Assembly (NCBI RefSeq): GCF_014844135.1
Contig: NZ_CP041403.1
Span: forward strand, 1,922,001 to 1,986,000
Reading direction: 5' to 3'
Length of the DNA stretch: 64,000 nucleotides
Source: Arcobacter sp. FWKO B
Lineage (GTDB): Bacteria > Campylobacterota > Campylobacteria > Campylobacterales > Arcobacteraceae
Position 1 is the first letter of the stretch; each line of letters starts with the position of its first letter. The position numbers were made by a program, and so were the translations under genes. Below are positions 2,897-35,311 of the stretch, piece after piece. A model generated the notes under the pieces. The model made no database searches. It saw only the letters and a program-made list of their open reading frames with translations, and was not told the origin of the DNA.

Positions 2897-5366
2897 TTAA
2901 AACGATTCCCACTCATCATTTGAACTTTTTGATGGGGCAATAGTTTTTATTTTTGTTGGTGTGCAACACCCACCACTATGTGAGTGAGTATGTGTTGAAA
3001 CAGAGGCTGGTTTTTTTGATATTTGTGCTACTTTTGTTGATGGCGTTGATATACTTTGATGAGTATTTGCTGTACCATTTTCTTTTAATGCTTTAGCGTT
3101 ATCAATTTTTACTTGATTTAACCCTCTAAATACCTCTATAGTTGCATGCTCAATTTCTTGTGAAATTCTTTTTAGTTCGTTATTTGATGCATTTTGAGCT
3201 GATTTGTCCATATATTCTTTTACTTTATTGTGTACTTTTGCATGGTTTTCCATAAAGTGGTTCCATGAAGCTGTTTTTGTAAAAGCTTTGTTTTGGCTTA
3301 TTTGCTCATCTACCCATTTACCAAGATTACAGCTATGGTGATCTGTAACAGTTACAGATTTTCTATCATCAAGTTTGTTAAAGTTTGTCATTTTAAATCT
3401 AACATGGTCATTTTTTAATTTTGCAGTTGTGAAAACCAAATCTACATCAGCTACTTGTTCTCGTGCTTCTGGTTTAAATTTAGCTCTACTTGCTGCAAGA
3501 ACAAGGTTATTTGAAAGGTGTGATACTTCTTGTACAAGATCATTGATTCTTGTAGCTTCAGCAGCATTTTGTTGAGTAGCTTGGTCTAGCTGAGTTACTG
3601 CATCATTGATTTGTTCAAGTCCTTCTTGTTGTTCTTTTGAAGCACTTGCAATATCATTTATCAAGTGAACAGTATTTTGAATATTTGCATTTAATGCTTC
3701 ATACCCTTTTATCATATCATCGCTGATTTTTTTACCATTGTTTGCTTTTGAAGTTGCATTTTCAACTATAGCTTTTATCTCTTTTGCAGCTTCAGCACTT
3801 CTTGAAGCAAGGTTTCTTACCTCTTGAGCAACAACGGCAAATCCTTTTCCAGCCTCCCCTGCAGTTGCAGCTTCAACAGCAGCATTTAGTGAAAGGATAT
3901 TTGTTTGGAATGCGATTTGATCAATCACTGTAATCGCATCATTGATAAGATTTACTTGAGAGTTTATTTCATCCATAGAAGATGCTGTTTCATTAGCAAG
4001 TTTTTGTCCTACATCAACTGAGCTATTTAACTCTTTAGAATTGATTAATATTTTGTTTATATTATCATTGTTATTTATTATTGTACTAGTTATCTGCTCT
4101 AGTGCTGCTGCTGTTTCTTCTAAGCTTGCAGCTTGTTCATTACTAGCTCTTGCAAGGTTGTTTGAAGTTTCTTCTAGTATATCAGTATCTATGTTTAGTT
4201 TTTCCCCAGCATTTAATATCATACCAATAAGTTCAGATACATTATTACCTATTAACATAGTTGCAGCTACAAGAGAACCAAAGCTTCCGTTCATATTTTC
4301 ATTTACTTTAGGGTCATAAGTGTAATTAAAGTCACTCTCACCATATTTTGTAAGTGTATCTACTACGATTTGAAGCTGTTGGTTTGTTCCACTTACAAGT
4401 TGGTTTACTTTATCTTTGATACTATTTGTCATAGGATTAGATGAACTACCTTTTACTGTATAGAAGTAAAAACCATTATCTACTTTTTCAATAATATCGT
4501 CTATTTCAGCTACTAAAGCATTGTCTTGTTCTATTTCTCTTACAGTTTTGTCTATTGCGTTATTGATTTCAACTGCCATTTGTCCAAATTCATCAGAAGA
4601 ATCTAGTTCAATATGTGGAGCGTGAGAGTTTTCTCTATTGATAAATGAGAAAAATCCATTTAACCCATCTTTTACTCTAGATAAAGAGTTTGTAATATTA
4701 TTAATAGTTGTAAATGCCATAATAATTCCAATAGCAATAGCTAATAATAGTACTATAATTGTAATAAATACAAAGCTATCAGCAGTTGAAGATGCATCTG
4801 TAATCATTTTTGAAGTATTTGTAAGATTTGTATCGGTCAAAGAATCCATAGTTGCACCCATAGTGTTTGAAATAGGTACCATTATAGCTACAGCTTTTCT
4901 GTACTCTTCAAAAAGACTTCTTTGTATATCTGGATTTGTGTTATTTATAAGTTTGTTGATAATACCATCAAGAGTTATATATATATTTTTCCACTCTTTG
5001 TATTCTTGTGCAAGTTTTGCAACTGCTTGTCTTCCTTTTTCACTAGCTCTTGGAAGTGACTCAAATTTTTTCCAGTTCTCTTCTATGATTTCCCAGCTTT
5101 TAGCTCTTTGTTGAGCAATGTCTGCAAAATTTGAACTAGCAGAGAAGTTTTGCTCAAAAGCATAAACATTTAGTGTTTGAGCTCTAATTACCATTCTTTC
5201 TCTGTTTAAGTTTGCTAGATATAAAATACCAGGTATTCTATCTTCACTAATTTTATGCAAATCACTTGACCATGATTTACTACTATAAAGTGCTATGACA
5301 CCTAATAATTCCCAAACCAACTAGTAAAACACTAGTCAATAGTACTAATCTACTTTTGATAGACAT
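2897..5366 (-). pseudogene. 4HB/CZB methyl-accepting chemotaxis protein with an N-terminal frameshift
   Basis: The natural start is the ATG at 5366, with AAGGGG seven bases upstream. It encodes the first membrane segment ('VLLTSVLLVGLGII'). That frame then runs into a stop, and the receptor continues in another frame from about 5302. Removing one A at 5303 joins the frames exactly as in the related receptor at 31542, where '[10 protein letters not shown]' aligns with 'IIGVIALYSS'. From start to stop the gene is 3n+1 bases. Without repair the longest frame starts at a poor TTG (5320) and lacks most of the first membrane segment. The repaired protein is about 822 residues: four-helix-bundle ligand domain, second membrane segment (~residues 195-220), signalling hairpin, then a CZB zinc-binding domain ('HSCNLGKWVDE', later paired histidines), a His/Cys-rich stretch, and C-terminal 'EWESF' like the CheR-tethering pentapeptide. 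The frameshift may be real or a sequencing error. Confidence 0.8.
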
Positions 5367-9857: not shown

Positions 9858-10175
9858 CTAAGCCCCCCTAATTGACAAAGATTTCAAAAGTGTAGTAATA
9901 TAAAATATATCTTAAGTTTGAAACTTAGAGTATTTTATTATTTTTAAGCTTACAGATTTATTAATTTATGTAATGATTGTGAAAAATTATTTCCAAATCT
10001 ATTTATAGAAAATTCTTATCTTACAAAAATGAAATTTATAAATGAAGATTTTCATTATTGGTTACAAGATGATTGCATATAAAATATTGTATCAATTTTG
10101 TATAAAATATATACATAAATGCAAACTGTATTTTGTCTAGATATTGTTATAATTTGCCTATATAAAGGAGTTATA
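9858..10175. promoter_or_regulatory. Divergent promoter region
   Basis: No gene is seen. A consensus TATAAT with a preceding TG lies at 10148-10153 and fits a start about seven bases later, ahead of AAAGGAG and the ATG at 10176. A small inverted repeat AATGAA/TTCATT lies near 10040-10055. The rest is plain AT-rich sequence. Confidence 0.45.
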
Positions 10176-12743
10176 ATGAGTGTTGGAATATATAAAGGTA
10201 TTCAGATACCAACAGATTTGATACCAATAAGTAAATATATGAATAAAGTAAATGAATATTCACAAGAACTTGTGTCGTTGAATAAAACATGGGATAATTT
10301 AGAGTTTTTAGCTCAGTTTGGACAAACGAAAACGAATTTATCTGAAACAAAATCTAAATTTTCTACATTAACTGTAAAATTATTAAGTCATCTTTGTCAA
10401 GAGACTCTAAATAAAACAGTAAGGGAAATGGGTATAAAGTCTCAAAATACAATAGATATATTGGTTAGAAATTTATTTGAACGAACGGCAGATATAGGAT
10501 TTTTAGCTACAGATAAAGATATAAGAGAGTTTTTATCAAGTACTATTTCAAAATATGATGAACACTACTCTTTATATGCACCAAGAATCAAAGATAGATT
10601 TAAAGAATATGTATCAAAATATAGTGTTTATTTTGATATTGTTTTATTAAGTCCAAGTGGAGATATACTTATACAACTAGACCAAACAAACTCTAATTCA
10701 AAATCCAAAGATGTTTTGGTAGAACTAGCATTAAATTGCAATGATGATTTTGTTGAAAGTTATAAATATCATGATTTTTTACCTCAATATAATAAAAGTT
10801 TGGTTTATGCATATAAAGTAACGCAATCAAATGAACCAAATTCAAAAGTACTTGGTGTTTTGGCTTTGTGCTTTAGATTTGATGATGAGATGAATGGAAT
10901 TTTTAGCAATTTAGTCTCACACAATAATAAAGAGTGTATTACACTTTTGGACTCAAGCAATAAGGTTATCTCTTCTAGTGATATATACCATATACCTATA
11001 GGGGCTACTATGCAAACAGTCCTTGATAAACCATATAAAATAGTTTCATTTGGTGGAAGGGATTATTTAGCAAAAACATCAGCTACAAAAGGATACCAAG
11101 GCTTTTTTGGGCTTGGATGGTATGGGCATATTATGATACCTTTAGATTATGCTTTTGTTGATGATAGTGATGAAAATAGTGCTATGTCACAAGATATCAT
11201 ACTTGCTATATTGCAAAATAATAAAGAATTTTCATCAGATTTAAAATCAATTCCTATAGAAGCAAATATGATTCAACAAGAATTAAATAGAGCACTTTGG
11301 AATGGAAATATACAACAATCAAAAGGTGAAAATACAAACAAAGATTTTACAAGATTGCTTTTTGGTGAGATAGGAAAAATAGGCTCATTTACAAAAGATG
11401 TATTTAGTAAATCAATAACAAATCTTACACAAACAATGGTTTTAAACAATACTACTGCAACATCATCATTAATGATAGATATTATGGATAGGAATTTATA
11501 TGAAAGGGCAAATGATTGTAGATGGTGGGCATTAAGTACAGATTTTAGACAAATACTCGATAAAGATGTAATCAGCGATGAAGATAGTAATAAAATGTCA
11601 GATATTTTGGCATATATAAATAACCTCTATACTGTATACACAAACCTATTTATATATGACTCAAATGGTATTATTGTTGCAACATCTCAAGTAAGTCAAA
11701 GACATCTTATAGGTAAAAAAATAACATCATCGTGGGTTGAAAATACATTAAGTCTAAAAAATACTTCAGATTACTGTGTAAGTAATTTTGAACAAAGTTT
11801 ATTTTATGACTCTAAGCACACATATATCTATAATGCAGCTATAAAATCTCTTACAAACCAGAAAAACTTAGGTGGAATTGGGATTGTATTTGATGCAGAA
11901 AAAGAGTTTGCTGATATGCTTAATGACTCTTTGCCAAAAGATATAAATGGTAATATCAAAGCAGATACTTTTGCACTTTTTGTATCAAGAGATAAAAAAG
12001 TTGTATCTTCTTCAACCTCAAAGATAAGAATTGGTGATTTTGTAGATATTGATGATGATTTTTTTACTTTTAGAAATGGTAATTCATATAGTAAAATAGT
12101 AATATATGATAATAAATACTATGCAGTTGGAGCTACTTGTTCAAATGGTTATAGAGAATATAAAAGTGCTACAGACAACTATAAAAATGATATCATAGCA
12201 ATATTTTTTTCATTTATAAGTGATGCTAACTTAGAAATCATTAAGCAAGTGCAAGGTTTTTCTATTGAAACACTAAGTAACAATCATGAAGAAAAAATTG
12301 AAATAGCATCTTTTTATGTGGGTCATAAATGGCTTGGCATTTATTCTGATGATGTCATAGAAGCAATTAGTATCAAAGAAATGGAAAATTCAATAGACCT
12401 AGATAGTGAAAATATTTTTAAAGGTACTGTGATTTTCAAAGATAATGCAATAAGCGTCCTTGATATCAAATCACTAATAAAAGAGTATAATGAAGAACCT
12501 TATACAGAGATAGTTATAGTAAAATATAAAGAAGCAACTCAGTATCACTATGTAGGGATATTGGTAAATAGGCTAGGAAATATTTCAGAAGTAAATACAA
12601 CTAAAATAAAACCAATAGAAAAACATTTTATAACAGGTGGTACAATGATCCAAAGTGTTGTAGTACATGATGGACCAAATGCAAGTCAAAAATTATTGAC
12701 TATTTTAAATCTAGAAAAACTAAGCTCTACTTTTATAGAGTAG
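10176..12743 (+). CDS. Soluble tandem Cache-like sensor fused to a CheW-like domain
   Basis: The 855-residue protein has no signal peptide and no membrane segment. Two related halves (~60-370 and ~440-690) each show a helix with an 'LFERTADIGFLATD' or 'LYERANDCRWWALS' motif. This is followed by a sensor fold with 'VLLSPSGDI' or 'LFIYDSNGI', the layout of double Cache domains. The last ~150 residues resemble CheW ('IASFYVGHKWLGIYSDDV', then 'KDNAISVLDIKSLI'), the adaptor that links receptors to the kinase CheA. Cache domains are normally extracytoplasmic, so a cytoplasmic tandem Cache-CheW protein would be an unusual receptor-array partner. The ATG at 10176 has AAAGGAG five bases upstream and a TATAAT promoter box before it; an earlier in-frame codon at 10119 lacks both. 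Domain identity is by eye, moderately sure. Confidence 0.72.
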   Translation: MSVGIYKGIQIPTDLIPISKYMNKVNEYSQELVSLNKTWDNLEFLAQFGQTKTNLSETKSKFSTLTVKLLSHLCQETLNKTVREMGIKSQNTIDILVRNLFERTADIGFLATDKDIREFLSSTISKYDEHYSLYAPRIKDRFKEYVSKYSVYFDIVLLSPSGDILIQLDQTNSNSKSKDVLVELALNCNDDFVESYKYHDFLPQYNKSLVYAYKVTQSNEPNSKVLGVLALCFRFDDEMNGIFSNLVSHNNKECITLLDSSNKVISSSDIYHIPIGATMQTVLDKPYKIVSFGGRDYLAKTSATKGYQGFFGLGWYGHIMIPLDYAFVDDSDENSAMSQDIILAILQNNKEFSSDLKSIPIEANMIQQELNRALWNGNIQQSKGENTNKDFTRLLFGEIGKIGSFTKDVFSKSITNLTQTMVLNNTTATSSLMIDIMDRNLYERANDCRWWALSTDFRQILDKDVISDEDSNKMSDILAYINNLYTVYTNLFIYDSNGIIVATSQVSQRHLIGKKITSSWVENTLSLKNTSDYCVSNFEQSLFYDSKHTYIYNAAIKSLTNQKNLGGIGIVFDAEKEFADMLNDSLPKDINGNIKADTFALFVSRDKKVVSSSTSKIRIGDFVDIDDDFFTFRNGNSYSKIVIYDNKYYAVGATCSNGYREYKSATDNYKNDIIAIFFSFISDANLEIIKQVQGFSIETLSNNHEEKIEIASFYVGHKWLGIYSDDVIEAISIKEMENSIDLDSENIFKGTVIFKDNAISVLDIKSLIKEYNEEPYTEIVIVKYKEATQYHYVGILVNRLGNISEVNTTKIKPIEKHFITGGTMIQSVVVHDGPNASQKLLTILNLEKLSSTFIE

Positions 12744-12757
12744 AGTGGAGTTTTTTT
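12725..12757 (+). terminator. Intrinsic terminator of the Cache-CheW gene
   Basis: The stem CTCTAC/GTAGAG (12725-12730 and 12740-12745) overlaps the stop codon. A run of seven T follows five bases later. Confidence 0.65.
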
Positions 12758-13394
12758 ATTTTTTATTTTTTTTCTTTTTAGATCGGGTAGGGTTTACTTT
12801 GTATGATGTCTTTCTAAGCTTGTCTATAAGTTCACTTGCAACTTTGTACATATTTGAAATAACTTGTGCATTGTGAAGCTTACCATCTTTTTTTACTTCC
12901 ATTCTTGCAATATCATACTTACTTAGAAGTTCTATATAATCAAGTTCTTTAAGATATGGATATATTTCAATTGATTTATTTTCTTCAAGTATCCATTCAC
13001 TCAAAAGTGCTAGGACAAGTTGCTCTGGTATCCAGTTTTCACCTTGTGCTAGTGAAATTTGTATTTGTCTTACTATAGCATCATAGTAGTGCAGAAGTGG
13101 AGCCTCTTTTTTTAGTAAAAATAACATACCACTATTTTGTGGTGCATTTGAAGCAAGTTGTCTTAGTGTTTTGCTACTTATTATGGTGTCTTGTAGATGT
13201 GATAAAAGCTTTTGTAAAGTCTCAAAAACCAATTTTTGATCTTCAGACGAGCCTATTTGCATGCTTATAACACCATTTTCAATATCTGTAAAAAACTGCT
13301 CAAGTGTAGTACGGATAAAAACCAGTAAAGCTTCAGTTTTAACATCTCTCAATAAAGTAGGTTTGATTCTATTTGGTGGTGAAGAAATATACAT
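12756..13394 (-). CDS. Unrecognised ~210-aa family linked to taxis genes (copy 1)
   Basis: I do not recognise this family. The 212-residue protein is soluble and mostly helical. It begins with a near-invariant block ('RIKPTLLRD' then 'KTEALLVFIRTTLEQFF') and has a central block 'WIPEQLVLALLSEWILEE'. It ends in a lysine-rich tail ('RSKKKKNKK'). A clear paralogue lies at 36357; both share these three blocks and have nearly the same length. Both sit at the end of sets of energy-taxis genes containing a CetB-like PAS gene. The ATG at 13394 is chosen because AAAAGGG lies eight bases upstream; in-frame codons further out have none. The basic tail could contact nucleic acid or acidic membrane, but that is only a guess. 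Confidence 0.8.
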   Translation of the reverse strand: MYISSPPNRIKPTLLRDVKTEALLVFIRTTLEQFFTDIENGVISMQIGSSEDQKLVFETLQKLLSHLQDTIISSKTLRQLASNAPQNSGMLFLLKKEAPLLHYYDAIVRQIQISLAQGENWIPEQLVLALLSEWILEENKSIEIYPYLKELDYIELLSKYDIARMEVKKDGKLHNAQVISNMYKVASELIDKLRKTSYKVNPTRSKKKKNKK

Positions 13395-13428
13395 AAAAAA
13401 TACCCTTTTAAAAAACTTTAACAAAAGC

Positions 13429-13533
13429 CCGTAAACCAATGGTGAAAAATAAACATTAGGGGGTGTTTATATTTACTTTCTGGTTTACGGTTGATAGCTA
13501 CCAAAGAGTGTATAAAGTAGCTATCAATCCTAA
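13429..13533. repeat. Nested inverted-repeat element
   Basis: CCGTAAACCA (13429-13438) pairs with TGGTTTACGG (13481-13490). The second arm also belongs to another hairpin: GGTTTA/TAAACC outside and TTGATAGCTA/TAGCTATCAA inside (13482-13533). The two folds are mutually exclusive. Related words (GGTTTATGG, TTGATGG) recur at 59472 and 62060, which suggests a family of small intergenic elements. Confidence 0.55.
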
Positions 13534-13669: not shown

Positions 13670-13910
13670 CTACATAGTTGAATATAAAAGTTTTGCTTGT
13701 TGGATCTCAAAGTATGTAGCTTTTCGTCTACAGCTTAAATATCCTTTTTCTCCTTGACAGTTTTGAAATGGATATACGGTTGCATATACCCAGTAATATT
13801 CATTATTTTTTGTTTTATTTTTAACATAACCAGTCCATATATTACCACTTTTGACACTTTTCCACAAATCTTCAAAAGCACCTTTTGGCATATCTGAATG
13901 TCTTACTATA
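13670..13910 (-). pseudogene. Truncated CetB-like PAS gene lacking its N-terminal half
   Basis: The readable protein begins inside a PAS domain ('IVRHSDMPKGAFEDLW') and runs to a normal end, closely matching the protein at 691 ('YWVYATVYPF', 'KGYLSCRRKA'). The first 50 or so residues, including the start codon, are missing. At about 13910 the PAS sequence meets the end of a CheA ATP-binding domain in a different frame. The first ATG inside the remnant (13891) has no convincing ribosome-binding site. It is best read as the remains of a CetB-like gene cut by a deletion. Confidence 0.75.
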
Positions 13911-14588
13911 TAAAGTCAAAGGCATTATTATGATAAGCTTTGTTCCCTCATCTATGACTGAACTTATCTCTATTCTACCATTTAGTTTTTCTACTATAGC
14001 TTTTATGTGTTGAATAGTCATATCATCACTTTGAACTTCATTTTCAATAACAGCATTGCTTTCTAGGTTTAAAGATTCTACATCAATGCCTTTACCATCA
14101 TCTTGTATTGTGATATATATCTGTTCATTAATTTGTTCTGCACTAACAGTTATATTTCCTTCTTTGCTTTTTCCTTTTGACATTCTAACATCTGGTGCTT
14201 CTATACCATGTATTACAGCATTTGATATGATACTTTTTAGTGGCAAATCTAGATTTTCTATCATAGACTTATCTATTTTTGTATCCCCACCTTTTATATT
14301 TAGACTTACAAGTTTATTATGTGTTGTTGATTCTTTATCTACTATTGAACCATAAGTTTGGAAAATATTATAAATTTTAACCATTCTTATATCCATAGCA
14401 TAGTCTTGTAACTCCTTAATATGTCTTTGAAAAAGTGCAGTTTTTTCTAATAATTCTCTTTTCTCATCACTAAGTGGTAAATCCTCAATTGATTGTGACA
14501 TCATAGAGTTAGTGATAACCATGTCGCCTACTTTATTCAGTAGCTTTTCTAGCTTATCCAAATCAACTGTTACATTTGAGCTTTTCAT
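13872..14588 (-). CDS. Truncated CheA-like kinase fragment (dimerisation plus ATP-binding domains only)
   Basis: The 238-residue frame starts with a CheA P3-like dimerisation segment ('VDLDKLEKLLNKVGDMVI'). The P4 ATP-binding domain follows, with 'MDIRMVKI', 'SIISNAVIHGIE' and 'DDGKGID', up to 'LIIIMPLTL', the usual P4 end. The phosphotransfer domain (P1), P2 and the CheW-like P5 are absent. The last dozen residues come from out-of-frame PAS sequence past the junction near 13910. The segment between the N and G boxes and the end of P4 is shorter than usual, and no clear GFST-like lid is seen. The ATG at 14588 has AAGGAC seven bases upstream. The product could not autophosphorylate in the normal way and is probably a remnant. 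Confidence 0.7.
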   Translation of the reverse strand: MKSSNVTVDLDKLEKLLNKVGDMVITNSMMSQSIEDLPLSDEKRELLEKTALFQRHIKELQDYAMDIRMVKIYNIFQTYGSIVDKESTTHNKLVSLNIKGGDTKIDKSMIENLDLPLKSIISNAVIHGIEAPDVRMSKGKSKEGNITVSAEQINEQIYITIQDDGKGIDVESLNLESNAVIENEVQSDDMTIQHIKAIVEKLNGRIEISSVIDEGTKLIIIMPLTLYSKTFRYAKRCF

Positions 14589-14859
14589 AATTTGTCCTTG
14601 TTTAAATCTTTTAGGCTGTTTGTATTTTTTCGATATTATACCAAACAAATATTGAAAATAATATAAATAAAATATGTAAAGCATACATTTAAGTATAGAA
14701 ATTATAAATTTTAATAAACAAAAAGCTTAAGTATTGTTACTATTTGTAAACTGAATATAATATTTTGTGATGAAAATTTTTTAATTAAATGAATTAAGAC
14801 TATTTTTATCCTAATTAGTTTACAATTTCATACTTTCAAAAAAACAAAGGAGAATTTAT

Positions 14860-15523: not shown

Positions 15524-15847
15524 ATGGATAGTTTATTCGGTCGAGAATATATACTTAGTAAACTTAAAGAACTTAAACCAAAATTTGAAAGTGATGGTGT
15601 AAATATTTTGGGACTTTTTGGCTCATATGCAAGAAATGAAGAAAATTCATCTAGTGATATTGATATATTGATAGAGACTACGCCAATCTTTATGACAAAA
15701 TATAGAGGATTAAAGGCTTATGTAAAACTTGAAGAAATCAAAAATATATTAGAGAAAAACTTCCATAAAAAAATAGATATAGTTGATAAAAATGGTTTAT
15801 TACAGCATAAAAATACTTATATCTTAAATCAGGCAATTTATGTATAG
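15524..15847 (+). CDS. mntA: MntA-type minimal nucleotidyltransferase antitoxin
   Basis: The 107-residue protein shows the minimal nucleotidyltransferase signature 'GSYARNEENSSSDIDILI', with two catalytic aspartates, and a third in 'KKIDIVDK'. In characterised MntA/HepT systems this enzyme adds AMP groups to a tyrosine of the HepT toxin and so silences it. The ATG at 15524 has AAGGAC six bases upstream. It overlaps the HEPN gene by eight bases, as usual for the pair. The family is clear; activity is inferred from intact motifs. Confidence 0.85.
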   Translation: MDSLFGREYILSKLKELKPKFESDGVNILGLFGSYARNEENSSSDIDILIETTPIFMTKYRGLKAYVKLEEIKNILEKNFHKKIDIVDKNGLLQHKNTYILNQAIYV

Positions 15848-16199
15848 TGAAATAGAAATTGTTAGGATGCAATCTATTTACAAAAAGTTAAATAGTGTTT
15901 TTAATATAATTCAAAGGCATGGAACTATTTCAAAAGCTCTTTTAGATGAAGAAGGACAACCTGCTATTTTGATGTTACTTATAGCTTGTGCAGAGCAGTT
16001 TAATAAATTAAATAAAATGGAAGCACAAATTTTGAATGAATTTAATCAAATAGATATAAAAGGGATTATATCTATACGAAATTTTATAGCTCATGATTAT
16101 GATGGAGTAAACTTATCTATAGTAGAAGATAGCTTACGCTACGGGATACCAGAAATATTTTCAGTAGTAAAAGAAATATTAGCTAAAGTAAATAGTTAA
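15840..16199 (+). CDS. hepT: HepT-type HEPN toxin
   Basis: The 119-residue helical protein carries the HEPN motif RNFIAHDY (Rx4-6H with the tyrosine that MntA modifies). HepT proteins are RNases, reported for some members to act on tRNA or mRNA. The gene overlaps mntA by eight bases and ends one base before the convergent clpA stop at 16201. No ribosome-binding site is visible, so translation is probably coupled to mntA. The pair sits between tpx and clpA, which is otherwise ordinary chromosome, so it is a likely insertion. Confidence 0.83.
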   Translation: MYSEIEIVRMQSIYKKLNSVFNIIQRHGTISKALLDEEGQPAILMLLIACAEQFNKLNKMEAQILNEFNQIDIKGIISIRNFIAHDYDGVNLSIVEDSLRYGIPEIFSVVKEILAKVNS

Positions 16200-24863: not shown

Positions 24864-26414
24864 ATGTCATTATTTAATTTTAAAACACAAGAAGAGTCTT
24901 ATCAGCTAAAAGCAATAGATGATAATTATGCAGTAATTTCGTTTAAACCAGATGGAACAATACTTCATGCAAATAAAAACTTTGCAGATGCTCTTGGCTA
25001 TGATAGTGAAAAAGAGTTTATTGGTAAACACCATAGAATATTTTGTGATGCAGAGTATGTAAAAAGTAGAGATTATAGTGATTTTTGGAGTTCATTAAAT
25101 AGTGGTAAGACTATGACATCAGAGTTTAAAAGAATCAAAAAAGATGGTAGTTCTATTTTCATTCAAGCATCCTATATGCCTATAAAGGATAGTAGTAGTA
25201 GAGTTATTCAAGTGATAAAATATGCTCAAGATGTAACACAAAGAAAACTTCAAACTCTTGACTATGAAGGGCAACTTGAAGCTATAAGTAAGTCTCAAGC
25301 AGTCATTGAGTTTAATATGGATGGTACTATCATCAAGGCTAATGAAAACTTCTTAAAAACTCTTGGATATAGTTTGAGTGAAATAGTATGCAAACACCAT
25401 AATATATTCTGTGAGAACACTTACAAAAACTCCAATGATTACAAAGATTTTTGGAAAAGGCTAAATAACGGTCAGTTTGATTCAGGGGAATATTTGCGTA
25501 TAGGTAAAGGTGGCAAAGAAGTTTGGATACAAGCATCTTACAACCCTATAATGGATATAGATCACAAACCTTTTAAGGTTGTAAAATATGCAACTGATAT
25601 AACAGATAAGAAAAATCTGATTTTCGATATTGATAAAAAAGTCCAAGGACTAACTGGTTCTTTGGACAGCTTATCAAATGCAGCAGTATCTATGTCACAA
25701 GGTGCACAGGTCACTATGAATAGCTCTCATGAAGTATCTGTAGCAAGTGAGCAGATAAATCAAGCAGTTTCAGACTTATCAGAAAAAATAGAAGCAATGC
25801 TCTCATCTATCACAAAAATAGCTGATTCTTCAGCAAAAGGTGAACAAGTAGCAAAAGAGGCTCAGTCACAATCCAAAGAGACTACAAAAGCTATGATGCA
25901 ACTCCACGAAGAATCTACAAAAATAGGTGAAACAATACAAATCATCACTCAAATAGCTTTTCAAACAAATATCTTATCACTAAATGCTGCTGTTGAAGCT
26001 GCCACTGCAGGAGAAGCAGGAAAAGGGTTTGCAGTAGTTGCAGGAGAGGTGAGAAATCTAGCTTCAAGGTCAGATGAAGCGGCAAAAGAGATTTCAAAAG
26101 CTATAGCACTTATTCAATCACTTGTAAAAAGGGCATTGGATTCAATAAATACAATAGATACAACCATTCAAGATATAACAGATATGTCAAGTGGTATATC
26201 ATCTTCTATGACAAATCAACAAACCATCACAAATGATTTGGCAAGTACAGCTTTAGAAGTGAGTCAAGGTGTCAATGAAATCTCAAATAATATGGTAAGT
26301 GTTTCAAGAAGTGCAGAAGATAGTGGAAAAAAATCAAAAGAAACTATGACAGCGACGGAACATCTTGTAAATGTATCAAACCAGTTGATAGTTATACTAC
26401 AAAAGTTGAAATAA
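24864..26414 (+). CDS. Soluble PAS-PAS methyl-accepting chemotaxis protein (BdlA-like layout)
   Basis: The 516-residue receptor has no membrane segment. Two PAS domains (~15-130 and ~135-250) share the motifs 'GKHHRIFC'/'CKHHNIFC' and 'WIQASYNPI'. The signalling hairpin (~265-516) has the tip '[20 protein letters not shown]'. The same layout occurs in Pseudomonas BdlA, which links an internal redox cue to biofilm dispersal. The next gene makes or degrades c-di-GMP, which fits that comparison, but the role is inference. A GGAG lies 11 bases before the ATG, a long spacing. Regulatory element A lies directly upstream. Confidence 0.88.
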
Positions 26415-29120: not shown

Positions 29121-31118
29121 ATGAAAAATATGTCGGTTAAAATAAAGTTACAAATATTAGCAGGTAGTTTGATTGCTTGCTTATTGGTTGTAGGAGCATT
29201 AGCCTATTATAGTGCGGTATCATGGCATAATGATACAGATTATATCGGTAAACAAAGAGTACCAGGTCTTTTGTATCTCTCGAATCTAAATAAAGAGAGA
29301 ATGATAGTACGCTCACAAACACTAGCTGTCTATGAGTTTGAAAATAAATATGATTCTCAAGAGGAATTTTCAAAATTAATTCAACAAAGATTAGATAGTT
29401 GGAAAATAATTGATGAAAATTGGGAGGCTTTTAGTAATATACCTAAAGTAAGTAAAAAAGGTCAAGAGATATTTAACAAATTGTCAGACGAGTACATACA
29501 ATGGAGAAATATATATGTCAAACTAGATGATATAATATTAAAATTATCTCAGAATCAAAGTGAATATAGACAAAAAGAACTTTATCAAGATTATAAAAAT
29601 ACAATACAATTAATGGTGCCTATTTCAAATTTAATGGGTGCTACAATGGATTTAATAACCCAAACCAACATTAATAATACAACAAAAGTTATAGAAGAGG
29701 CTTCAGATACTTCAGAACTTATTAGAATCATAACAATATTTTTAATATTAGTATCATTAGTAATAGGAACCGTAATTACAATATTAACTATTAATACAAT
29801 CTCAAATTCATTAAAGACAATTCAAGATGGTCTGTATGAGTTTTTTAAATTTATTAATAGAGAAAATATGAATGCCTCACTTATAAATCTTGAAACAAAC
29901 GATGAGTTTGGACAAATGGCACAGGTAGTAAATGAAAATATAATAAAAACTCAAAAAGGTATAGAAGAAGATAGAAAACTTATAGATGAAGCGATAGTCG
30001 TTTTAGGTGAGTTTGAACAAGGTGACTTGTACCAAAGATTAAATATGAGTGTATCTAATCCAGCACTAGTCCAACTTAAAGATGTACTTAATAAAATGGC
30101 AGCTAATTTAGAAAATAATATTGAAAATGTACTAAATGTACTTGAACAATATAGTAAATATAACTACTTAAATAAAGTTGATCAAAATGGTTTGAAAGAA
30201 CATCTTCTTAAACTTGCAAATGGTGTAAATACTTTGGGTGATGCAACAACTAAAATGCTAGTAGACAATAAACAAAATGGTTTAACACTAGATGCAAGTA
30301 GTGATATTTTATTGGCAAATGTTGATAAATTAAATCAAAGTTCAAATGAAGCAGCATCTTCTTTAGAAGAAACAGCAGCAGCACTAGAAGAGATGACAAG
30401 TACTATTATTAGTAATACTGAAAATGTAGTAAAAATGGCAGTATTTGCAAATGAGCTTACCCTTTCAGCAAAAGAGGGTATGAAATTAGCTCAAGATACA
30501 AATATCTCAATGGATGAAATCAATACTCAAGTAACAGCAATAAATGATGCAATAGCAGTAATTGATCAAATTGCATTTCAAACAAACATCCTAAGCTTAA
30601 ATGCTGCTGTTGAAGCTGCAACTGCAGGGGAAGCTGGAAAAGGATTTGCTGTTGTTGCTGGAGAGGTAAGAAATCTTGCTGCCAGAAGTGCTGAAGCTGC
30701 TAAAGAGATAAAAGGTATAGTTGAACGAGCTACTTCAAAAGCAAATGAAGGTAAAAATATAGCTGATAAGATGATAAAAGGGTATAGTGGACTAAACGAT
30801 AATATATCTAAAACAATACAACTAATCTCAGATATAGAATCAGCAAGTAAAGAACAACAAAGTGGAATAGAACAAATCAATGACGCTGTAACACAACTAG
30901 ACCAACAAACACAACAAAACGCAATGATAGCAGGTCAAACTCATGATGTTGCAGTTTTAACAGATAAAATAGCAAAACTTGTAGTATCAAGTGCAGATGA
31001 AAAAGAGTTTCATGGTAAAGATAGTGTAAAAGCACAATCTATGGAAGAAAGTAAATCTCATTTAAAAGTAGCTAATATTAAAAATATCTCAAATGTCCCA
31101 GAAAAAATAAGTATTTAA
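29121..31118 (+). CDS. 4HB-type transmembrane methyl-accepting chemotaxis protein
   Basis: The 665-residue receptor has a membrane segment (~9-30). A periplasmic four-helix-bundle ligand domain with '[16 protein letters not shown]' follows, then a second membrane segment (~202-225). A HAMP-like linker leads to the signalling hairpin with tip '[18 protein letters not shown]'. Methylation-type segments flank the tip. The C-terminus ends in 'EKISI', without the EWESF-type tail seen in two relatives. The ATG has AAGGA five to six bases upstream. It is close in sequence to the receptors at 2897 and 31542, indicating recent gene duplication. Element C lies upstream. Confidence 0.93.
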
Positions 31119-31243: not shown

Positions 31244-31541
31244 ACACTTATAATAATTATAAATCAATTCTATTATTATAATTATTTATAAATCCTTCCT
31301 AAGGAGTATGAAATATATTTTTACGAATGCTTAATTTGGATATCCATATATAATGCAAAAGATAAGTGTATTGAGATGTTAAATCCATATTTGCCAGTGA
31401 ACAAGATAAATTGATAGGTGGCAAATACAAGTGATATATTTACTTCAAAATATAGAGATTGAAGGACTTCTCAAAAGTTGTGTTGTTTCGAATTCAAGAG
31501 TATTATAAAAGTATATTTTACAATAAAAACAAGGGGTGAAA
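31244..31541 (+). other. Long untranslated leader or decayed sequence
   Basis: No intact gene is seen. An AAGGAG lies one base before an ATG near 31310, which opens only an eight-codon frame. Short open stretches in all frames are broken by stops, so this may be a leader RNA or the remains of a small gene. AAGGGG at 31531 is the ribosome-binding site of the next receptor. Confidence 0.35.
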
Positions 31542-33651
31542 ATGTCAGTAAAAAATAAGTTAATATCATTGGTAAGTTTCTTAAAAATTGGTATTATAAT
31601 AATAGGAGCGATAGCGATATATAGTAGTGAGTCTTGGGAAAAAGATATGCATGAAGTAGGAGATAATAGGATGCCAAGTATGGCATATATATCAAATCTT
31701 AATAGAGAACGAATGGTAATAAGAGCACAAACTTTTAATGTTTTTGCATATGAAAATTCTTATTCGGCAAGTTATTTTTTTGCTAATATAGCAGGACAAA
31801 GAGCAAAAAGCTGGGAAATCATAGATGAAAATTTTGGGAAATTTGTTCAGCTTCCAAGAGGTAGTGAAGAGGGTAGAAAAATAGTTGCAAAACTTCAAAA
31901 TGAATATGAACAATGGCGTAAAATATATGCCATACTTGATGGGATAATAGCAAAATTAGTTTCAAATAATAATGAGACTATACAAAAAGAACTTTTTGAA
32001 GAGTATAGAAAAACAATAGATCTTATGGTACCGATTTCAAATCAATTTGGTAGCACCATGGACGAGCTTACCCAAACAAATTTGAAAAATACAAAGAAGC
32101 TAATTGATGGCTCAGCTCATAAATCAGATATAGCAGTATATTCAACTATTATTGTGTTTGTTTTGGTATTGATTATAGGTATGTTCTTGGCATATAGTAT
32201 TATTTCAAATGTATTACGGTCAATAAGCACATTTCAAAATGGACTATTTAGCTTTTTTTCATATTTAAATAGAAAAGTAACAAAAGTTGATTTAATAGAT
32301 ATAAAATCAAAAGATGAATTTGGACATATGGCAGTACTTGTTAATGAAAATATATCTTTAATACAAAATAATATAGAAGAAGATAATAGATTGATTGCAG
32401 ATACACAAGTGGTTATGGATAGAGTATCAAATGGATGGTTTTCTCAATATATAGTAGAAAACAGCAATAATCCAGCTTTAGTGCAACTTAAAAATACAAT
32501 AAACACAGCCCTTGACAATCTAAAAGCAAGGTTTATTACTATCAATGCTATTTTGGAGGAATATACTAATCATAACTATACAAAAAAACTTGTTATAACT
32601 GGTATAGAATCTGGAGGAGTTTTTGATACTTTGGTAAAAGATGTAAATAAACTGCAAGATACTATAAATCAAATGCTTGTTGATAATAAACAAAATGGTT
32701 TAACATTAGATGCAAGTAGTGATATTTTATTAGTAAATGTTGATAAATTAAACCAAAGCTCAAATGAAGCAGCAGCTAGTCTTGAAGAAACAGCTGCAGC
32801 ATTGGAACAAATCACAAGCAATATCAGAAACAACACGGAAAATATAGCAAAAATGTCGTCATTAGCAACTAATGTTACTAAATCAGCTAATGATGGAGAA
32901 ACACTAGCAAATCAAACAACTATAGCAATGGAAGAGATTAATTCACAAGTTACGGCGATAAATGAAGCAATAGCAGTAATTGATCAAATTGCATTTCAAA
33001 CAAATATCCTTTCACTAAATGCTGCTGTTGAAGCTGCAACTGCAGGTGAGGCTGGAAAAGGATTTGCTGTTGTTGCTGGAGAGGTAAGAAATCTTGCTTC
33101 AAGAAGTGCTGAGGCTGCTAAAGAGATAAAAGATATAGTCCAACTTGCTACAGCAAAAGCTAATGAAGGTAAATCAATAGCTAATAATATGATACAAGGA
33201 TATAGTGAGCTAAATAAAAATATATCACATACTATAAATCTTATATCAGATATAGAGAATGCTTCAAAAGAGCAATTACTTGGTATTGAGCAAATTAATG
33301 ATGCAGTAACACAGCCTAGATCAACAAACACAACAAAACGCAATGGTAGCATCACAAACGCATGATGTTGCAGTTCTTACAGATAAGATTGCAAAACTAG
33401 TAGTTGAACATGCTAATGAAAAAGAGTTTATAGGTAAAAATGATGTAAAAGCTCAAAGTATGAATAAAGGTTCATCACAGGTAAAAGTACCTGATGTAAA
33501 GAAGAAGACAAGCCCAGCTGAAGCTGGAGTTACAAAAGGTCAAACACAAAGCCAACTTCAATCGGTTTCATCAAAGACCAGCCAGAGCAAAACTCCTATT
33601 GAAAAGATAACACCATCTCAACCTTCATCAGATGATTGGGAAAGTTTTTAG
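31542..33651 (+). pseudogene. 4HB-type methyl-accepting chemotaxis protein with a C-terminal frameshift
   Basis: The receptor starts at the ATG at 31542 (AAGGGG five bases upstream) and has membrane segments at ~10-30 and ~205-228. A four-helix-bundle periplasmic domain lies between them, followed by the usual signalling hairpin. After 'EQINDAVTQ' the frame breaks and ends at 33365. One extra C at 33315-33316 explains this: without it the sequence continues as '[20 protein letters not shown]', as in the receptor at 29121, to a stop at 33651. The gene is 3n+1 bases long. The lost tail is about 110 residues, including a proline/serine-rich linker and C-terminal 'DDWESF', similar to the CheR-binding pentapeptide. 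The signalling tip itself is intact, so the truncated form may still signal. Sequencing error is not excluded. Confidence 0.82.
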
Positions 33652-34072: not shown

Positions 34073-35311
34073 ATGTTTGTTAATAAAAAAAGAAATAGTG
34101 AAATTTTATATTTTTTGAATAATATAGAATTATTTTTGAAAAATGAGATAAACAATATCCCTATGGATTGTATGAATAGTAAAATGGATAGTGATATCAA
34201 AGATAAGTTGATATCAATTTGTAGCATATTAAATAAAAAAAATGATGAAGAATTGCTTATATATGGTGAACTTATGCTTGTCTCTGAAAAGATAGTATAT
34301 GGTGATTTTGATGATGTTATTCACCATACAAATACTTCAAATACAAAGCTTAACTACATAGCAAAAACTATCAATTATTTGGTACAAAACCTAAAGAAGA
34401 TCAATACACAAATAGTTGATATTTTGAGTTTATATTCGAGTCAAAATTATTTAGCTAAAATTGATCAAAATTCCCATAATGGATATTTTAAAATACTATC
34501 TGAGGGTGTAAATACCCTCGGTAATTCTATAACTAATATGTTAGTTGAAAATATGAAAAACGGTGTGACACTTGATGAAGGGTCTGATACTTTACTTGTA
34601 AATGTAGATATTTTAAGTAAAAGCACAAATTCAGCTGCTGTTAGACTTGAGGAGACATCAGCTGCTGTTGAAGAGATTACAAGTATTGTAAGACACAATA
34701 TGGAACATATCAAAAAGCTTTCTTTGTTGTCAAATGAAGTAAGAGTTTCTACACAAAATGGACACAACCTATCAAGTCAAACCCTAGATGCTATGGATGA
34801 AATAAATGTACAAGTAAATGCTATAAATGACGCTATAAGTGTAATAGACCAAATAGCATTTCAAACCAATATATTATCTTTAAATGCTGCTGTAGAAGCA
34901 GCAACTGCTGGAGAAGCTGGAAAAGGTTTTTCAGTCGTTGCAGGTGAAGTGCGAAATCTTGCTGCAAGAAGTGCTGAAGCTGCAAAAGAGATTAAAAATC
35001 TTGTACAAAATGCGACACAAAAAGCATATCATGGAAAAACAATAGCAGATAATATGATAAAAGGCTATAGTGGACTTAATGACAATATTTCACAAACTTT
35101 AGAGTTGATAGCTGATATAGAAGTTTCTAGTAAAGAGCAATTAAGTGGAATAGAACAAATAAATGATGCCATAGCAGAACTTGACGAACAAACACAACAA
35201 AATGCTGTAATTGCTTCACAAACTCATGATATTGCTGTGGAGATGGATATTATAGCAAAAGAGATTGTTGCTGATACTATGACAAAAGAGTTTATTGGGA
35301 AAAATTGTTAA
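34073..35311 (+). CDS. Soluble methyl-accepting chemotaxis protein without own sensor domain
   Basis: The 412-residue protein lacks membrane segments and any recognised ligand domain. About 100 helical residues precede a linker with '[19 protein letters not shown]' and the signalling hairpin (tip '[18 protein letters not shown]'). Its linker resembles those of the membrane receptors at 29121 and 31542, as if a membrane receptor had lost its N-terminal half. It follows the CetB-like PAS gene by 9 bp and is its likely partner. It ends 31 bp before the degenerate kinase gene. Confidence 0.87.

Follow-up and report, generated by a model that had tools for sequence, protein, structure and literature searches.

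A tandem-dCache protein with a C-terminal CheW-like domain in Arcobacter sp. FWKO B and its relatives in other bacteria

Chemoreceptor arrays are usually thought to take ligands via MCPs. CheWS (CheW-CheRlike) of Treponema denticola was presented by its authors in 2023 as the first CheW-fused sensor for chemotaxis to have been characterised (PMC10653840). Like the 855-residue protein of Arcobacter sp. FWKO B (the host) described here, which was identified in a window of 64,000 nucleotides (the whole stretch of DNA analysed), CheWS combines CheW and a sensor domain in one soluble chain; its small-molecule sensor is cytosolic, it has no membrane segment and it was proposed to provide an intracellular input to arrays (PMC10653840). 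The two differ in that CheWS senses through a single CheR-like, SAM-binding domain located C-terminal to CheW, whereas the host protein has two dCaches N-terminal of a CheW domain without Arg62-Gly63, and its link to arrays is a prediction. CheW-CZB and CheW-PAS architectures, in which a sensor domain is likewise fused to CheW, are also known (PMC10653840); CZB and PAS are domains commonly used for sensing in the cytosol, whereas dCache is usually extracytoplasmic. Cache domains in general are principally extracellular, 78% of them confidently so (PMC4822843). According to the CheWS paper, Pfam contains 30 CheW architectures not yet described, 12 of which include input domains, and Cache-CheW may therefore be among them (PMC10653840).

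CheV resembles the host protein in being an adaptor with an added domain, but that domain is a phosphoryl receiver and not a ligand sensor, and CheV keeps the Arg62-Glu38 pair (PMC4742279), the host CheV having RG. The dCache_1 chemoreceptors of the Campylobacter Tlp3 type share the dCache fold (target-normalised TM about 0.68) but are membrane receptors with an MCP signalling domain, whereas the host protein has two soluble dCaches and no MCP domain recognised by Pfam. No study of the Cache-CheW combination was found in the open-access literature (subscription literature was outside the search); the Vass/Bourret analysis of CheW-like domains may include such an architecture. The 855-residue protein is a variant of the CheW-fused sensor, neither a canonical CheW nor an MCP, and its family is apparently widespread and unstudied.

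Gene and domain architecture

The protein is the product of an open reading frame read directly from the sequence at 10176-12743 (+). An alternative in-frame start upstream, at 10119 in the ORF list, would give a longer protein and was judged less likely than the ATG at 10176. With a divergent neighbour upstream and a convergent one downstream, the tandem-dCache-CheW gene is probably transcribed alone. Sigma-70 promoter-like sites near the gene were not more numerous than expected from shuffled sequence, and a search for an RNA element near it found none. The features of the gene and its product, with the evidence for each in brackets, are:

10164-10170 (+), AAAGGAG ribosome-binding site, 5 bases ahead of the ATG at 10176 (read directly)
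10176-12743 (+), tandem-dCache-CheW gene, 855 amino acids (ORF, orientation of neighbours, terminator-like site)
10212-10427 (+), N-terminal helices, residues 13-84 (AlphaFold; helix 55-111 enters dCache 1)
10428-11165 (+), dCache 1, residues about 85-330 (hhalign, Pfam, AlphaFold, Foldseek)
11235-11444 (+), helical hairpin ahead of dCache 2, residues 354-423 (AlphaFold, profile comparison)
11445-12230 (+), dCache 2, residues about 424-685 (Pfam, AlphaFold, Foldseek, conservation)
12231-12287 (+), linker of low confidence, residues 686-704 (pLDDT <50 at 692-703)
12288-12731 (+), CheW-like domain, residues about 705-852 (Pfam, Foldseek, profile match)
12435-12443 (+), F754-K755-D756, at the site of the canonical L-R-G with E. 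coli Arg62-Gly63 (alignment)
12722-12753 (+), terminator-like stem with a T tail at the 3' end of the gene (sequence inspection)

A sequence-only reading of this DNA had proposed two Cache-like sensor regions, a C-terminal CheW-like domain and no membrane segment, all of which were confirmed, both folds being recovered by structure prediction and fold comparison. In Pfam searches with the query alone, the sole Cache-type match was Cache_WalK (residues 482-537, 8.5e-8, over the cut-off), and CheW (PF01584) matched residues 711-850 with 1.6e-6 and 28.2 bits against a cut-off of 23.5. Among 40 family members, 32 matched the dCache_1 profile (best 1.6e-18) and 32 the CheW profile (best 4.3e-24); the CheW-like domain also matched PDB CheW chains in a profile comparison (E 5e-14). 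An hhalign comparison matched residues 85-345 to 424-690 with E 1e-23, showing the two to be homologous repeats. An AlphaFold model built on a 39-sequence alignment had a mean pLDDT of 82.7 and a pTM of 0.74, while a model from the single sequence had a pLDDT of 31 and was discarded. Foldseek searches against the PDB returned CheW structures, for example, 2ch4_W (target-normalised TM 0.84), and dCache ligand-binding domains including NagS, Tlp3 and Mlp37 (target-normalised TM 0.70 for 8w7p_B and 0.68 for Campylobacter Tlp3).

The dCache fold, with its long helix at the N-terminus and its pair of PAS-like modules, was recovered by AlphaFold and Foldseek; each Cache-like region is a complete dCache of two Cache/PAS modules, four such modules in total. 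The CheW-like domain combines its above-cut-off profile match with an SH3-like double-barrel fold. In the model, helices at residues 13-19, 23-48 and 55-111 run into dCache 1, which is set apart from dCache 2 by the helical hairpin (354-383/389-423); a helix at 426-451 leads into dCache 2, and the CheW barrel starts at 707. The helix motif DILVRNLFERTADIGFL lies at residues 94-110 of dCache 1, and the invariant helix motif IMDRNLYERANDCRWWA at residues 436-452 of dCache 2. The Kyte-Doolittle mean over 19-residue windows did not exceed 1.25, and the protein is therefore without a membrane segment, as are all 40 aligned relatives (maximum 1.96). Contrary to the usual dCache arrangement, the dCaches are not flanked by membrane helices, and the protein ends in CheW. 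Its location would be cytosolic, because it has a CheW domain and no export signal.

The most conserved sensor of the family is dCache 2, with 24 near-invariant columns in its first submodule (468-586) and none in its second (590-650). Conservation of this kind is as expected for a ligand pocket, and the first submodule is, as the most conserved sensor submodule, the likeliest ligand site.

Family distribution and the CheW-like domain

A search for homologous loci identified 59 relatives, including sequences from Arcobacteraceae, other Campylobacterota, Methylococcaceae, Oxalobacteraceae, Geobacter and Halomonas. The family ranges over Campylobacterota, Pseudomonadota and Geobacter, with Verrucomicrobia added by MAG labels, and a strong match was present in 33 of 298 genomes of the host's phylum, Campylobacterota. 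A second tandem-dCache-CheW gene of the host (L115:4771-7296, minus strand) is about 45% identical to the first. Comparison of neighbourhoods across the loci found no conserved operon or chemotaxis neighbours for the gene family. One MAG is labelled Bordetella parapertussis, probably wrongly; its copy and the one from an uncultured beta proteobacterium are nearly identical (L012 and L013).

In a phylogenetic tree built from 84 rows of the tandem dCache region, the CheW-bearing members lay on one branch (support 96) with a single exception, and forms without CheW, of about 630-670 residues, lay outside it. In the exception a frame break splits the gene, and the CheW part is encoded by the next ORF. 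The fusion of CheW with the tandem dCache happened once; as the only exception to the one CheW-bearing branch is a split gene, this fusion is old and has been maintained. The frame break (L081:222-2132 and 2147-2932, genome G281) lies between dCache 2 and CheW and is either real or a sequencing error.

Each of the 33 strongly matching Campylobacterota genomes had a CheA dimerisation domain, compared with 261 of 298 overall (uncorrected for relatedness), as did 48 of 48 genomes behind the other loci. Among the genomes checked, members without CheW likewise occurred only alongside CheA, so that the association with CheA extends beyond proteins with a CheW domain and may be a matter of lifestyle. 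Mean entropy places the CheW domain with the most variable regions of the protein across the family. Despite this, its dN/dS of about 0-0.11 in ten close pairs indicates purifying selection, and the domain is therefore maintained.

The Arg62-Gly63 signature is absent from the CheW domain of the 855-residue protein, which has K755-D756 in its place and reads I-F-K-D against N-L-R-G in canonical CheW. The position equivalent to Arg62 is Arg in 2 of 60 family members, R-G occurring in one, whereas R-G is present in all 36 canonical CheW and CheV domains compared, which were taken from the host and its relatives. The equivalent of Gly57, G750, is kept in 59/59 members; that of Glu38 is present as E729 and in 39/59 of the family. 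Canonical CheW uses Arg62-Gly63 for coupling, and in E. coli Arg62 bridges to Glu38, the R62A variant retaining largely intact binding with impaired chemotaxis (PMC3828127). Given this phenotype, normal coupling by a domain without Arg62 is doubtful even if docking occurs, and coupling may differ from that of canonical CheW.

We consider it fairly probable, if by no means certain, that the protein is a soluble sensor with ligand-binding dCaches that docks on CheA/CheW arrays by its CheW domain. The two dCaches would bind one or more intracellular small molecules and, lying in one chain, would probably form a covalent pseudo-dimer, perhaps mimicking a receptor dimer. The C-terminal domain would dock the protein at CheA/CheW/receptor arrays, and a ligand-driven change could alter kinase activity or array composition, bypassing a membrane chemoreceptor. 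Such a role, the feeding of an internal signal into arrays, had been suggested by the sequence-only reading together with the domains. It stands as the most likely one, in view of CheA in every surveyed member genome, purifying selection on the CheW domain and the precedent set in Treponema arrays by CheWS, a cytosolic sensor of SAM fused to CheW (PMC10653840). It is complicated by the loss of Arg62-Gly63 and, as to its being new, by the earlier characterisation of CheWS; the variable CheW domain and the orphan gene context also count against it. If it is correct, internal ligands reach arrays via adaptor-borne sensors more often than assumed, in a multi-phylum family, and Cache domains serve inside the cell. 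The family would also supply natural CheW variants without Arg62 for probing receptor-kinase coupling by CheW.

The same loss of Arg62-Gly63 in a highly variable domain, and the same orphan context, also fit an explanation that we regard as possible but unlikely, namely that the CheW-like domain no longer belongs to the array and has become a generic binding module for another partner, with the dCaches regulating the interaction. The existence of sister forms without CheW points in this direction too, as it indicates that the sensor part can act on its own. Against it speak the retained CheW fold with its Gly57 equivalent (G750) in every member, the Glu38 equivalent (E729) kept here and in most of the family, and the presence of CheA in all surveyed genomes.

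Single-module relatives and the helical hairpin

Single-module homologues of about 350-400 residues (L065-L067, L147-L176) were identified in Azospirillum and other Pseudomonadota, and 33 of 398 genomes sampled around the Azospirillum one had a match, most of them of the tip-dCache type. Like the tandem proteins, these have a homologous dCache with the helix RNLYER..D.RWWA, which reads RNLYER..DVRWWA in the single-module proteins, and no evident membrane segment (maximum Kyte-Doolittle 1.63); they differ in having one dCache, an intact tip of about 60 residues (consensus LALNALIEAARAG) and no CheW. In L066, for instance, an intact MCP signalling tip (MCPsignal 2e-15) lies directly ahead of the homologous dCache. 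Pfam recognised no methylation bundle in the single-module proteins, which are apparently soluble stalkless chemoreceptors with a minimal tip fused to a dCache.

In the tandem proteins the hairpin ahead of dCache 2 occupies the position of this tip, and a single-module profile aligned with the tandem second half with E 5e-36 overall, in register through the hairpin. Compared alone with MCP tips, the hairpin showed a weak similarity, with P about 0.03 for all members and P 0.04 for the CheW-bearing members, while the gammaproteobacterial hairpins without CheW matched tip hairpins with P 3.2e-4, a better match than any of 40 column shuffles or a reversed control gave; similarity was clear in one of ten subset comparisons. 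Hairpin 1 found no support in comparisons with hairpin 2 or MCP tips. Even with a threshold of E 5, the best 25 Pfam families listed for 40 members did not include MCPsignal, and no match to it was listed for the query either; comparison of the hairpin with the host's own MCP tips, leaving out tip-bearing rows, was not significant. An initial hint of an MCP tip in the linker arose in part artefactually, because the profile included three rows with tips. Taken together, these suggestive similarities make it plausible to see a degenerate MCP tip in the hairpin ahead of dCache 2. The half 1, half 2 and single-module groups each fell on one side of a branch, with four rows only for the single-module group.

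A tentative scenario, which we think has a minor chance of being right, is that an ancestral unit of tip plus dCache was duplicated in one chain, the tips decayed and CheW was added instead. The family would then represent a lineage of stalkless soluble chemoreceptors, hybrids of receptor and adaptor through which an internal ligand is connected directly to, or disconnected from, the CheA ring by a coupling that does without Arg62.

The single-module relatives with an intact tip directly before the homologous dCache, the in-register alignment and the gammaproteobacterial hairpins could also be accommodated by a tip traded for an adaptor, in which the degenerate-tip hairpin is bound in cis by the CheW domain, so that receptor and adaptor would form one self-contained unit able to join or cap rings; the loss of Arg62 would fit such a changed mode of receptor binding. 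We consider this improbable, as only one of the ten subset comparisons was clear, the hairpins of the CheW-bearing members themselves came no closer to tips than P 0.04 and hairpin 1 gave nothing. Moreover, no family member had MCPsignal among the Pfam matches listed, the comparison with host tips was not significant and the weak MCP matches came from a profile with three real-tip rows. It is very improbable that the protein is an inhibitor rather than a sensor input, filling CheW ring positions uncoupled, as a competitive spacer that lowers kinase activity or array order when ligand-bound: an R62A-type CheW can bind both partners without supporting chemotaxis (PMC3828127) and the family lacks the Arg, but the E. 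coli behaviour may not carry over to so diverged a domain.

Chemotaxis genes of the host and the surroundings of the gene

The chemotaxis set of the host genome, which counts in favour of the reading as an array-docked sensor, comprises two full CheA, two CheW, one CheV and about 21 MCP-domain matches. In one host CheW gene (L113:4838-5629, plus strand), which adjoins cheA and an MCP gene, the first half of CheW is followed by an inserted chemoreceptor zinc-binding (CZB) domain.

Downstream of the tandem-dCache-CheW gene, the convergent gene at 12756-13439 (-) encodes a 227-amino-acid protein without a Pfam match and without a counterpart near other family members. At 13872-14684 (-) lies a gene for a short CheA-like protein of 270 amino acids with dimerisation and ATPase domains only, Hpt (P1) and CheW (P5) not being matched in Pfam. 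Two small adjoining genes at 15524-16199 (+) resemble, by eye, a nucleotidyltransferase/HEPN (MNT-HEPN) pair. The gene lies in an MCP-rich island, with 6 MCP genes within the 64-kb window of a 2.24-Mb genome:

1120-2559 (-), MCP gene
2897-5320 (-), MCP gene
24864-26411 (+), MCP gene
29121-31115 (+), MCP gene
31536-33362 (+), MCP gene
34073-35308 (+), MCP gene

In the MCP encoded at 2897-5320 (-), Pfam places a CZB domain C-terminally, after the signalling domain.
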